A stretch of DNA of 64,000 nucleotides. It comes from Pseudomonadota bacterium (GTDB lineage Bacteria > Pseudomonadota > Gammaproteobacteria > Burkholderiales > Burkholderiaceae_C). The stretch's first letter is position 1, and each line of letters starts with the position of its first letter. Under the pieces are notes generated by a model. That model was given only the letters and a program-made list of their open reading frames with translations. It had not been told where the DNA came from and ran no database searches. The translations under genes and the position numbers were made by a program. Below are positions 48,519 through 53,029 of the stretch, one piece after another. The DNA lies in contig JAJZTW010000014.1 of NCBI GenBank assembly GCA_021847345.1, positions 1-64,000 of the forward strand, written 5' to 3'.

Positions 48519-50306
48519 TCAGCTCAGGTGGTGCACCGGTGCCAGTCCGTAGACGGGCGTGGCCAGGCCCTCGTAGCGCGCCTTGAGTTGCAGGCCCAGG
48601 TACTGCGAGTAGTGGCGGTTCTGGTGCAGGTTGCCCCCCTGCACCCACAGGTGCGGCACCTGGGTCGGTTTCCACATGTTGCGCAGTTCACCCTCCCAGG
48701 GGCCGGGGTCCTTCGGAGTGTTCGAGCCCAGGCCCCAGACCTTGCCCAGGCGGTTGGCGACGTCCGGCGAGATCAGGTCGGACAGCCAGCGGTTCATCGA
48801 GCCGTAGCCCGTGGCGTACACGATGACATCGGCGTCGAGTTCGCTGCCATCGCTGAGCACCACCGAGCGCGGCTTGATGCGCTCGATGTGCACCCCGCTG
48901 CGCAGGTGCACGCTGCCGTTGGCCACCAGCTCCGACGCCCCGACGTCGATGTAGTAGCCCGAGCCGCGGCGCAGGTACTTCATGAACAACCCCGACCCGT
49001 CGGCGCCGAAGTCGAGCAGGAAGCCGGCTTTTTCCAGGCGCGCGTAGAAATCGGCGTTGCGCTTTTTCATCTCCTCGTAGACCGGGATGTGGAAGCTGTG
49101 CATGATCCTGTAGGGCACGCTGCCGAAAATCAGGTCGGCCTTGTGGCAGTCGATTCCCTGTGCCACCGCCTGCTCGGAATACAGCCCGCCGAGCGCCAGC
49201 TCCATCAATGAGTCAGAGGGCGCGATGTGGGTCGACGAGCGCTGGATCATGGTCACGTCCACCTCTTCCTCCCACAGCGCCGCGCAGATGTCGTGCGCGG
49301 AATTGTTGGAACCCAGCACCACCGCCTTCTTGCCGCGGTAGGCTTCGGCGCCGGGGAAGCGGCTCGAGTGGAACTGGTCGCCGACAAAGCTGTCCGCACC
49401 GTCGATCTCGGGCACGTTGGCATAGCCCGAGACCCCCAGCGCGATCACCAGTTCCCTCGGCCGCAGGGTCAGCTCGCGTCCGTCGCGCTCGACGATCACC
49501 TCCCACTCCTGGCGCGCCTCGTTGAAATGCGCCTTCTTGCAGCGCGTGGAACTCCAGTAGTTGAGCTCCATGACCTTGGTGTACATCTCCAGCCAGTCGC
49601 CCACCTTGTCCTTCGGCGCGAACACCGGCCAGTCCTGCGGGAACGGAAGGTACGGGAGATGGTCGTACCAGACGGGGTCGTGCAGGCACAGGCTCTTGTA
49701 GCGATTGCGCCAGGAGTCTCCGGGGCTCTTGTTCTTCTCCAGGATGATGGTCGGCACGCCGAGCTTGCGAAGCCTGGCGCCGAGGATGATGCCGGCCTGG
49801 CCTCCGCCGATGATCACCACGTGCGGCTGCTCGGTGTAGCCCAGGGTGCGCTGCTCCTGCTCGCGCAGTTCCTTCCAGGTCTTGCGTCCGCGGTAGGCGC
49901 CGTGCTCCACGCCGCGCGGGCGCGTCGGCCCCTGGGCCTCCTCGAATCCCTTGAGCTCGACCATGCTCGTCAGCAGGGTCCAGGCCTTGCCGTCGCGCAG
50001 GCGCAGCAGCCCCTTGCCGCGCGCAGCCGCCGTCTCGAAGGTGAACCAGGCCTCGGTGACACCGGCATTCTCGGTCGGGCTGCCGTCGACGGCCCAGCCC
50101 GAAGGCTGCGTGTGCCCCAGGGTGTTTTCCAGCATGTCGCGTATGCGTGGCGCCCCCTCGGCGGTGGTGATGTTCCAGGTGAACGCCAGCAGGTCGCGCC
50201 AGTAGCAGTCGGTGTCGAACATCGCGACCGCGGTATCGATGTCCCGGTTCCGCAGCGCCGCATCGAAATCCGCCAGCCAGGCGCTGGCGCTGTCTTGTGC
50301 ATTCAT
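48519..50306 (-). CDS. Flavin-containing monooxygenase with N-terminal NTF2-like region
   Basis: 595-aa flavoprotein. Residues 1-130 look like an NTF2/SnoaL-type cone (ADFDAALRNRDIDTAVAMFDTDCYWRDLLAFTWNI). HVVIIGGGQAGIILGARL with GGGQAG at 167-172 is the FAD Rossmann site, and a second GxGxxx-type NADPH site is AVVLGSNNSAHDICAAL. FVGDQFHSSRF resembles the FxGxxxHxxx(W/F) fingerprint of Baeyer-Villiger/N-oxidising monooxygenases. DADVIVYATGYGSMNRW is the ATG motif near the C terminus. ATG 50306 has GGAGA upstream. It is preceded by a sigma-54 promoter and an activator gene; substrate is unknown. Confidence 0.9.
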   Translation of the reverse strand: MNAQDSASAWLADFDAALRNRDIDTAVAMFDTDCYWRDLLAFTWNITTAEGAPRIRDMLENTLGHTQPSGWAVDGSPTENAGVTEAWFTFETAAARGKGLLRLRDGKAWTLLTSMVELKGFEEAQGPTRPRGVEHGAYRGRKTWKELREQEQRTLGYTEQPHVVIIGGGQAGIILGARLRKLGVPTIILEKNKSPGDSWRNRYKSLCLHDPVWYDHLPYLPFPQDWPVFAPKDKVGDWLEMYTKVMELNYWSSTRCKKAHFNEARQEWEVIVERDGRELTLRPRELVIALGVSGYANVPEIDGADSFVGDQFHSSRFPGAEAYRGKKAVVLGSNNSAHDICAALWEEEVDVTMIQRSSTHIAPSDSLMELALGGLYSEQAVAQGIDCHKADLIFGSVPYRIMHSFHIPVYEEMKKRNADFYARLEKAGFLLDFGADGSGLFMKYLRRGSGYYIDVGASELVANGSVHLRSGVHIERIKPRSVVLSDGSELDADVIVYATGYGSMNRWLSDLISPDVANRLGKVWGLGSNTPKDPGPWEGELRNMWKPTQVPHLWVQGGNLHQNRHYSQYLGLQLKARYEGLATPVYGLAPVHHLS

Positions 50307-50387: not shown

Positions 50388-50403
50388 TGCAAGCGCCATG
50401 CCA
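50388..50403 (-). promoter_or_regulatory. Sigma-54 (-24/-12) promoter of the monooxygenase
   Basis: The minus strand reads TGGCATG-GCGC-TTGCA, which differs from the consensus TGGCACG-N4-TTGCW at one position and keeps the invariant GG and GC with correct spacing. It lies 82 bp upstream of the monooxygenase ATG at 50306 and downstream of the sigma-54 activator gene and its repeat array, the classical arrangement of enhancer-dependent promoters. Confidence 0.85.
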
Positions 50404-50478
50404 GAGCCGTGTCCGCGCGCGCCCCCGCGTGGCCGGCGGGGCGCCGGCCCTGTGCTCCTGTCCCATGCGTCACCGTTG

Positions 50479-50576
50479 CGATGTGACAGCTGTCACATCG
50501 CAGCTGTCACATCGATTGCGTCACATCGATTGCGTCACATCGATTGCGTCACATCGATTGCGTCACATCGATTGCG
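50479..50576. repeat. 14-bp direct-repeat array with adjoining palindrome, probable upstream activating sequence
   Basis: The core TCACATCG occurs six times at 50493, 50507, 50521, 50535, 50549 and 50563, exactly 14 bp apart. The linker is CAGCTG before the first two cores and ATTGCG before the others, so four identical units lie in a row, and a trailing ATTGCG closes the array. An inverted copy, CGATGTGA at 50479-50486, forms a perfect 22-bp palindrome with the first core (50479-50500). The array lies 76-173 bp upstream of the sigma-54 -24 element, where an activator would bind. The stop of the activator gene (50563-50565) is inside the sixth core. Confidence 0.85.
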
Positions 50577-52602
50577 CGGCATCCGTGCCGTCGCGCGCGT
50601 CGGCTTGCACCGGCAGCGCCATGCCCCGGGCCCGCGCGGCGTCGCTGCGGTTGGGGCTTCGGATTCCGTGCCGGTGCATCCAGCGATACAGGGTCATTCG
50701 CGCCACGCCGAGCCTTCGCGCGGCCTCGCTGACGTTCCAGTCCTGCTGCCGCAGCAGCTCCAGCAGGCTGGCGTGGTCCGGTGCCACCGGGGCCGGGCGC
50801 GTTGCCGGCACGCGGGCTGCCGGCAACGGCTTGTCGGCCCGCGCGCCGGGCGCGCTTGCGCAGCCCAGGCACTCCGGAAGGTCCTCGACCATGACCACGC
50901 CGTGCGCGCACAGCGAGCGCGCGTACTCCAGCACGTTGCACAGCTCGCGCACGTTGCCCGGCCAGTCGTGTGCCAGCAGCTGCTCGCGCGCCGGTGCGCT
51001 CAGGCGCACCGGGCGTGGGCCGGCGCAGCACAGGCGCTCGACCAGCAGCTCCAGGTCGCGGCGCTCGCGCAGCGGCGGCAGGTGGAAATGCGCGCCGTTG
51101 AGGCGGTAGTACAAATCGTCGCGGAAGTCCCCGCGCCGCACCGCGGCCACGAGGTCGCAATGCGTGGCGGCCATCACGCGCAGGTTCACCGCGACCGGGC
51201 GGGTGGCGCCGACCGGCAGCACCTCGCGTTCGGCCAGCACCCGCAGCAGCCTGCCTTGCAGGGCCAGCGGCATGTCACCGATCTCGTCCAGGAACAGCGT
51301 GCCCCCGTCAGCCTCCTGGATCAGGCCGCGCTTGCCCTTCGACGAGGCGCCGGAGAAGCTGCCGGGAAGGTGCCCGAACAGTTCGCTTTCGATCAGGGCT
51401 TCCGGAATCGCCGCGCAGTTCACCGCGACGAAGGGGCGGCGCCTGCGCTCGCTGCTGTCGTGCAGCGCGCGCGCCAGGCGCTCCTTGCCGCTTCCGGTCT
51501 CTCCGGTCAGCAGGATGCTCACCGGAGAGTTCACCAGCCGGGCAGCGCGCTCGATCAGGCGGTCGAGAGCCGGATCGCCGGCCGACAGTTCGGCCAGTGC
51601 CGCGGGCAGTGCGCGGGCCGTGCCCGGCTCGGCCGAGGGGCCGCTGGCGCTGCGCACCGGCGGCGGCGACGCCAGCATGAACAGCATGTCGCGCGTGCCG
51701 GGCAGGGCGACGGCGCGGCGGTCCACCGGATGGCGGGCAACGAAGCGTTCGAGCTCGTGCAGCGGCAGCTCGAGGACCTCGGCCAGCGCGCGTCCGAGCA
51801 CGCAGCCGCCCTGCGCGCGCTCGAGCAGCAGCTGCGCCTGGCGGTTGTGCCCGGCGATGCGACCGTCGTCGTCGAGCGCCAGCAGGTATTCGGGACTGAC
51901 GTCCAGGAACTGGGGCGCGCTGCTCAGGCGCAGGACCCAATGGGTACGGAAGCGGTGCAGGAAGTTGGCGTTCTCGACATGCGCCGCGTACATCTTGACC
52001 AGCTGCAGCGCCAGGTGCTGGCTGTCCTTGCTGCTCGGCGACTTCAGCGCCGAGATATCGAGCACGGCCAGCAGGCGTCCCTGGTCGTCGTGCACCGGGG
52101 CGGTGGTGCAGGTCAGCGGGATGTGGGTGGCGTCGAAGTGGTCGTCCAGGTGCACGGTCAGCGCCTGCCCGGTGGCGATGCAGGTGCCCACGCCGCAGGT
52201 GCCGGCCAGCGGCTCGCTCCAGTCGGCGCCGAGATACAGCCCGGCCTTGCGCAGGCTGGGCTCGAACACCAGGTCGCCCAGGAAATCGACCGTCACGCCG
52301 CGTGCGTCGGTCAGCAGCACGCAATAGCCCAGGCCCGCCACCTGACGGTACAGGGTCTCCAGGCCGTGGCGCGCGATGTGCAGGAAGGCCTCGAGCCGGT
52401 CCTGGTGCTCTCGCAGCTGCGCGCCGGGCAGGATGATCGCCTCCTGCATGCGAGCCGGATCGAGCCGGTGCTCGTTGACGCAACGCGCCCAGGACGCGCG
52501 GATCAGCTCGTCCTTGCCGGGCCCCGCCGCATGGCTCGGCGCGCCGTCGAGGCCGACAGCCTGCAGGACCTGCTCGATGTGGGAACGTTGGGTCGTATGC
52601 AT
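50563..52602 (-). CDS. Sigma-54-dependent Fis-family activator, AcoR-like
   Basis: 679-aa enhancer-binding protein. The N-terminal GAF-type sensor region (about 60-215) has EPLAGTCGVGTCIATGQALTVHLDDHF, typical of AcoR/MimR-like regulators, and a PAS-like segment follows. The AAA+ domain has Walker A GETGSGKE at 367-374 and LFLDEIGDMPLALQGRLLRVL. The sigma-54 contact loop is GSFSGA (414-419) instead of GAFTGA. The C-terminal Fis HTH is DWNVSEAARRLGVARMTLYRWMHRHGI. ATG 52602 has GGAG at good spacing; ATG 52632 is weaker. It presumably activates the downstream monooxygenase through the adjacent repeat array. Confidence 0.92.
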   Translation of the reverse strand: MHTTQRSHIEQVLQAVGLDGAPSHAAGPGKDELIRASWARCVNEHRLDPARMQEAIILPGAQLREHQDRLEAFLHIARHGLETLYRQVAGLGYCVLLTDARGVTVDFLGDLVFEPSLRKAGLYLGADWSEPLAGTCGVGTCIATGQALTVHLDDHFDATHIPLTCTTAPVHDDQGRLLAVLDISALKSPSSKDSQHLALQLVKMYAAHVENANFLHRFRTHWVLRLSSAPQFLDVSPEYLLALDDDGRIAGHNRQAQLLLERAQGGCVLGRALAEVLELPLHELERFVARHPVDRRAVALPGTRDMLFMLASPPPVRSASGPSAEPGTARALPAALAELSAGDPALDRLIERAARLVNSPVSILLTGETGSGKERLARALHDSSERRRRPFVAVNCAAIPEALIESELFGHLPGSFSGASSKGKRGLIQEADGGTLFLDEIGDMPLALQGRLLRVLAEREVLPVGATRPVAVNLRVMAATHCDLVAAVRRGDFRDDLYYRLNGAHFHLPPLRERRDLELLVERLCCAGPRPVRLSAPAREQLLAHDWPGNVRELCNVLEYARSLCAHGVVMVEDLPECLGCASAPGARADKPLPAARVPATRPAPVAPDHASLLELLRQQDWNVSEAARRLGVARMTLYRWMHRHGIRSPNRSDAARARGMALPVQADARDGTDAAQSM

Positions 52603-53029
52603 CGAAGCTCCGGGCTCGAACATTGGCGCCATCCCGCACCATAGACAAGGTGCATGGCCGCCGAATACCCGGACGTACCCGAATCCGGGCAGCCCGCGAC
52701 TGGCGAGCTGGGCCGGGCCGGGCGGGGCCCAGCCCTGCAGCCGATCTGGCTGCGCGTGCTTGCTGTCGTCCGTCGCGGGACCCGCGTTCGGGGCGGCCGG
52801 TCGTGGCCGACTGACTCTGCGCGTGAGTGGTCATGGTGGGCAACGAGCCACACGCCCGCGGCCATGAACGGCATCGGCCAGATGCTCACTCCGCGAAGAC
52901 GTGAGTACGGGCAGGGTGCGCCTTCGACGCTCGGCAACGATACGACATGTAAAAAACGTGTCTGCGGCATACAAAAGACATCGCGGCGAGCCGAAAAAAT
53001 CAGGCTAAACCCTGAACTTTTCATCCGAA

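Follow-up and report, generated by a model that had tools for sequence, protein, structure and literature searches.

For Nla28, a sigma-54 activator of Myxococcus xanthus, a published study proposes binding to half-sites arranged as direct repeats, which it also mutated; they are 8 bp long and number at least two, often three to five, per promoter fragment (PMC9765219). In Pseudomonas putida, CbrB is reported to activate a sigma-54 promoter from three non-palindromic subsites (PMC6296734). For NorR of Escherichia coli, which senses through a GAF domain, the scaffold of a higher-order oligomer is reported to consist of three enhancer sites (PMC2941729). A survey of the Clostridiales reports that multiple sites per target are usual (32 of 39 groups; PMC6615313). 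AcoR of Cupriavidus necator is described as acetoin-responsive (PMC7057948).

The locus analysed here lies in a window, by which we mean the whole 64-kb stretch of DNA under study, and shares features with these systems. As proposed for Nla28, direct-repeat half-sites would serve a sigma-54 activator, but the spacers of Nla28 are variable and its half-site is different, whereas in the window the half-sites keep a constant step of 14 bp and stand next to a perfect dyad. The sites of CbrB are likewise non-palindromic and placed at a sigma-54 promoter, yet in mixed orientation, with variable spacing and without a dyad. NorR resembles the activator of the window in its GAF sensor, and three spaced sites also recur among the enhancers examined here, whereas NorR needs three separate sites and the window has one dyad with a series of half-sites. 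The original prediction had held six direct half-sites in fixed phase to be unusual for sigma-54 enhancers; direct-repeat or non-palindromic sites as such have precedents in the work on Nla28 and CbrB (PMC9765219; PMC6296734).

Further close counterparts are the AcoR-type activators and aco enhancers, with the same domain order, with relatedness to the activator of the window, and with TGTGACA-SS-TGTCACA-like dyads ahead of sigma-54-like promoters of acoX-like genes. Unlike those, the window has a flavin monooxygenase as neighbour gene, and a 14-bp direct series replaces the three-site layout -24/0/+17. Titles and abstract openings, mostly of non-subscription literature, brought up no AcoR-type activator with an array of half-sites at fixed pitch, and no description of the TGTGACA-SS-TGTCACA site. 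We read the array as one lineage's variant of an enhancer type that is already known.

The array, its candidate promoter and the adjoining genes

On the minus strand, the order of elements is activator, array, dyad, sigma-54 promoter match and flavin monooxygenase. The AcoR-like sigma-54 activator (50563..52632, minus strand) carries GAF, PAS, AAA+ and Fis-type HTH domains; the Pfam models GAF, Sigma54_activat and HTH_8 all scored above cut-off, which is the domain set of the AcoR type, and none of the 25 NCBIfam equivalog models listed was at its cut-off. The presumed target (48519..50306, minus strand) is a flavin-dependent monooxygenase matching PDB entry 8acs, an FAD-dependent oxidoreductase, over residues 9-595. 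Between the two lies a candidate -24/-12 promoter, TGGCATGGCGCTTGCA (50388..50403, minus strand), situated 94 bp from the dyad. It fits 11 of 12 consensus positions, in agreement with the near-consensus sigma-54 promoter that had been predicted, and is identical in both sister species (G012 and G015). An equally high score is reached at one other place when both strands of the window are scanned, and the genome itself possesses a sigma-54 factor gene. The distance of 94 bp is usual for an enhancer and its promoter; across 29 enhancers of the family the best promoter match (9-12/12) lies 73-178 bp away.

The repeated core, TCACATCG, starts at 50493, 50507, 50521, 50535, 50549 and 50563, so that the array runs in exact 14-bp steps from 50493 to 50570. 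A single inverted copy, CGATGTGA, at 50479 forms with the first core a 22-bp palindrome (50479-50500). The six cores, their pitch, the inverted copy and the palindrome were thus all found as had been claimed. No further copy of TCACATCG or of its inverse occurs elsewhere in the 64 kb. Tandem Repeats Finder returned a period of 14 bp at 50506-50576 with 5.1 copies and 100% matches, and a second period of 42 bp at 50492-50576. Three units amount to 42 bp, or four turns at 10.5 bp per turn, which upholds the helical arithmetic of the original prediction. Throughout the 3.66-Mb draft genome, core pairs spaced by 14 bp with zero mismatches are confined to the array (five overlapping pairs), and pairs with two or three mismatches occur at eight other places vs three for the reversed control pattern.

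Half-site positions are counted here from the dyad. The anchor dyad, TGTGACAGCTGTCACA, occupies 50482..50497, inside the palindrome, and is preceded on the minus strand, at -14, by a consensus direct half-site, TGTGACAG (50504..50511). TGTGAC at -14 is also present in G012, in G015, in Castellaniella defragrans and in the aco enhancers of G011 and G024. Further out stand identical copies of a unit in which TGTGAC is followed by G, at -28 (50520..50525), -42 (50534..50539) and -56 (50548..50553), the position at -28 being common to G012 and G015. The distal half-site, again TGTGAC followed by G, lies at -70 (50562..50567, minus strand) and holds the TGA stop codon of the activator (minus strand, 50563-50565), so that the array does end inside the activator's own stop codon as predicted. 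On the promoter side, a weak half-site, TGGGAC, is found at +32 (50460..50465, minus strand), where G012 and G015 have TGTGAC. Directly before the array, the C-terminal tail of the activator (50566-50646, minus strand) is about 17 residues longer than that of G015.

No second dyad with fewer than three mismatches was detected in the same genome. A regulon of many targets was considered and rejected, as dyads with up to three mismatches are fewer (23 hits per strand) than those of the reversed control (33).

The site in orthologs of the activator

The comparison covered 30 activators, the window included, with 55-98% identity and downstream DNA at hand; six loci at 50-51% identity (L076-L081), for which a script detected no GAFTGA-type motif in an open frame, were left out. 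By tblastn, the next gene downstream is a monooxygenase in 15 of the 30 (window included) and acoX-like in seven, so that orthologs do adjoin acetoin catabolism genes, as is expected of the AcoR type. In three named plasmid relatives, the acoX-like gene lies downstream of the activator, is annotated as an NAD(+)/NADH kinase and is followed by genes for a dehydrogenase E1 alpha and then a beta subunit.

A TGTGACANNTGTCACA-like site with up to three mismatches lies between activator and target in all 22 orthologs in which the two are adjacent. In the same stretch of the remaining eight, no such site was found even at four mismatches. These eight genomes were searched whole at up to two mismatches, and 12 loci were inspected among the places found. 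In seven of the genomes, a sigma-54-like promoter (9-11/12) is preceded, at a distance of 83-138 bp, by a dyad with one or two mismatches; the gene behind the promoter is acoX-like in G548, G678, G590, G468 and G011 and the monooxygenase in G436 and G480. In the eighth, G024, a site with three mismatches stands 96 bp upstream of an 11/12 promoter match before a divergent acoX-like gene recognised by eye; a relative of the monooxygenase was not detected in this genome at E 1e-60. Since the search of the eight genomes gave 32 dyad-like places (up to two mismatches) vs 19 for the reversed control, many are chance matches, and it is the location of the best sites, not the number of places, that carries the argument. 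Exact half-sites average 2.8 and 2.0 per 220 bp in the two target-adjacent groups; the average of the third group is 0, and shuffling gives about 0.07. As the site is found at the target wherever the target sits, it follows the target of the activator, as is expected of an enhancer. The proposal that the array is the enhancer of the AcoR-like activator at a sigma-54 promoter is therefore supported by comparison of sequences, in 22 of 22 adjacent pairs and in eight of eight genomes with the target elsewhere.

Coding end and regulatory site meet in a number of orthologs. Indeed, the TGA stop of the activator falls within a half-site (up to one mismatch to TGTGAC) in eight of the 22 adjacent cases (L009, L010, L048, L049, L060, L062, L067 and L073). 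In G024, a genome of the same genus, the activator and the acoX-like gene are divergent and have one site cluster in common (L014, 1253-1380), in which TGTGAC precedes the dyad by one 14-bp step, as seen by eye.

Unequal cores, layout and copy number

The half-site conserved by the orthologs is TGTGACA(G/C) rather than TCACATCG, and the flanking ATCG is not retained in the sister species G012. Among 26 dyads from outside the clade of the window, G012 and G015, all 52 halves carry C at position 6 and A at position 7. The count is biased, since these dyads were chosen for similarity to a pattern bearing that A; other positions of the pattern nevertheless vary, T being found in 32 of the halves at the first base and in 42 at the third. 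With 14.8 bits, the dyad and the -14 unit agree with the consensus half-site, whereas the four distal copies, which read TGTGACGC, reach 5.7 bits and lack the A constant in the ortholog dyads. The six half-sites had been taken as equivalent; this is not supported as it was put, four of the six copies being without that base. TGTGACG nonetheless serves as the +17 site in three orthologs (L054, L055 and L056), and such a site need not be dead. Judged from their letters, the six cores are unequal, and the well-supported part is one perfect dyad with one consensus half-site 14 bp off; the majority of the additional copies seem to be weak or surplus binding sites that a recent duplication produced.

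The layout of sites was surveyed in 29 enhancers, G024 being left out. The commonest arrangement, -24/0/+17, has steps of 23-25 and 16-18 bp and is present in 15 of the 29. Its first and third sites lie 40-42 bp apart, and 300 shuffles did not produce it once. This three-site layout is absent from the window, G012 and G015. A 14-bp step occurs in seven of the 29 (shuffled mean 0.07, maximum 1 in 300 shuffles), namely the window, G012, G015, Castellaniella defragrans, the aco enhancer of G011, L067 and a doubtful case, L054. The window holds eight half-sites, the next highest of the 29 enhancers five.

Scanning the genome_contigs collection (84,980 species, possibly without the genome of the window) returned five loci with an exact half-site 14 bp from a dyad: the two sister species, Castellaniella defragrans and two contigs of one Kordiimonadales genome. 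In the latter (MAG S139_36; L045 and L046), both contigs carry nearly the same half-site cluster with a perfect dyad, possibly a repeated element, and no activator gene was recognised beside these clusters. Triples of TGTGAC at 14 bp (up to one mismatch) were found in seven further genomes of a 399-genome family sample that excludes G012 and G015, vs two for the reversed control. They were rejected as similar enhancers, as these loci (L120-L126, one per genome) have neither a dyad within two mismatches nor a sigma-54 match of at least 11.

The activators of the sister species share 87% (G012) and 98% (G015, over residues 74-597) identity with that of the window, and both species keep the dyad, the promoter and half-sites at -28, -14 and +32. 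Core number had been proposed as a point of comparison among relatives, and it does differ: five upstream direct units in the window, four of them identical, vs two in G012 and two in G015. The difference in length is exactly 42 bp, or three units. Four identical units in the window and only two units in each sister species suggest, on the letters, that the extra units come from a recent tandem duplication. In the two half-sites common to the window and G012, their positions being those of the window, 12 of 12 bases match, vs 7 of 16 in linkers, a test on few bases (one-sided Fisher p 0.0017); with the stop codon removed, half-sites still match at 9 of 9 (p 0.0056). Between G012 and G015, the match is 30 of 30 in half-sites and 18 of 39 in linkers, a partly circular comparison because half-sites were defined by their presence in both. 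These close relatives provide natural enhancers with two vs five direct units, combined with one promoter sequence and with activators that resemble each other. With such a natural series one could ask about the number and phase of half-sites required by an AcoR-type activator, and about whether repeat number tunes bacterial enhancers.

In G015 (L048, contig C183, about 1446-1800), the match to the activator is interrupted by what seems to be a direct repeat, its copies separated by about 227 bp, that changes the reading frame. It may be a broken gene or a contig misassembly, and the species may be under less than full selection.

Readings of the array and more distant sites

The reading we prefer, with belief and doubt about evenly balanced, is an enhancer of the adjoining AcoR-type activator that drives the flavin monooxygenase, with the extra, duplicated units most likely weak accessory sites. 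The comparison of sequences shows the family of sites, its tie to activator and target, the promoter match and the difference in copy number. An HTH dimer would bind the consensus 16-bp dyad, the anchor, which lies some 94 bp ahead of the -24 box, and the consensus half-site one 14-bp step upstream of it would add another subunit. The outermost 14-bp unit, together with the stop codon of the activator, would recently have been duplicated in tandem, from two units to five, giving extra units in the right orientation and pitch but without one strongly conserved base. At most, these weak copies would raise the local concentration of activator and help assemble a hexamer, a role likened to that reported for the three enhancer sites of NorR (PMC2941729). 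The hexamer would then contact sigma-54 RNA polymerase via DNA looping.

A tentative but serious alternative keeps the same enhancer and regards the extra distal copies as neutral products of tandem duplication, a small minisatellite, with the dyad and near half-sites working alone. Neutral slippage would give distal units identical to each other, as they are, and the base changed in them is one that is constant in ortholog dyads; the two direct units of the sister species and the other, three-site layout of 15 of 29 ortholog enhancers point the same way. This reading accounts less well for the orientation and pitch kept by every copy, and for TGTGAC at -14 and -28, which G012 retains though the linkers have changed. 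Considerably less probable is the model of the original prediction, in which the activator fills every one of the six direct cores at a constant 120-degree phase and is thereby arranged into an ordered oligomer. The nearest support for such phasing would be indirect: the 40-42 bp span of the three-site layout in 15 of 29 enhancers, where the internal spacing is different. The exact pitch, with 42 bp equal to four turns, the eight half-sites vs at most five in other enhancers, and two HTH-end residues that differ in the clade alone are in its favour; yet four copies are weak, sister species have two direct units only, and -24/0/+17 is the layout of 15 of the 29 enhancers.

The remaining explanations concern the palindrome and the copy number, and both are very improbable. 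The consensus of CRP is ATGTGA-N6-TCACAT, and the dyad contains this, so that the palindrome could belong to a CRP-like global regulator (TGTGA-N6-TCACA) instead of the activator; one other exact TGTGA-N6-TCACA exists in the genome. Against this, the central ACA-SS-TGT is conserved, so that the spacer is not free, and it survives in two alphaproteobacterial relatives where TGTGA reads TGCAA. Moreover, the dyad accompanies the targets of the activator across genomes, and matches to TGTGA-N6-TCACA within one mismatch number 11 vs 9 for the reversed control per strand. A CRP-type site was rejected on the conserved centre and on this association with the targets. Equally remote is that the copy number is an error of a draft assembly, here one of 117 contigs and 93% completeness, or that the palindrome is an RNA terminator of the activator transcript. 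Array and palindrome together span 92 bp, and a typical short read is longer than that; the palindrome has no loop and no run of T after it, on which grounds the terminator was discarded, and dyads of this kind are also found at targets distant from the activator.

A further question is whether the protein changed with its site. Of the 45 residues around the HTH, four set apart the three species with the 14-bp series, and two of these four stand at the end of the motif. At one, the clade has Trp, against Arg in 23 and His in three of 26 other orthologs, L069 being unmatched by the pattern used; at the other, the clade has His and the others Trp, Phe, Leu, Ala or Tyr. A half-site at -14 is present without the clade residues in Castellaniella (L049), G011 (L015) and G024 (L014). 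With these exceptions, and with three species of one clade counting as one event, the residues are taken as a lead only. That the DNA-binding domain and the enhancer of the clade changed together, from three spaced sites to the 14-bp series, with the series bound by single HTH arms of successive subunits and its length, altered by duplication of units, setting the activation threshold as in a tunable sigma-54 enhancer, is unlikely in our estimation.

Among weaker relatives at 36-46% identity (L016-L038, n=23), a dyad-like site within three mismatches was found over the whole locus in two. Of 160 records of plasmid relatives, eight were examined: the TGTGAC-type dyad (up to three mismatches) occurs in three, a TGCAACA form was seen by eye in two, and neither form is clear in three. 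The TGCAACA form stands as TGCAACA-SS-TGTTGCA beside the activator on plasmids of Azospirillum and Bradyrhizobium (L101 and L102, by eye). The centre is unchanged in these alphaproteobacterial sites, which suggests a shifted outer specificity around a conserved centre.
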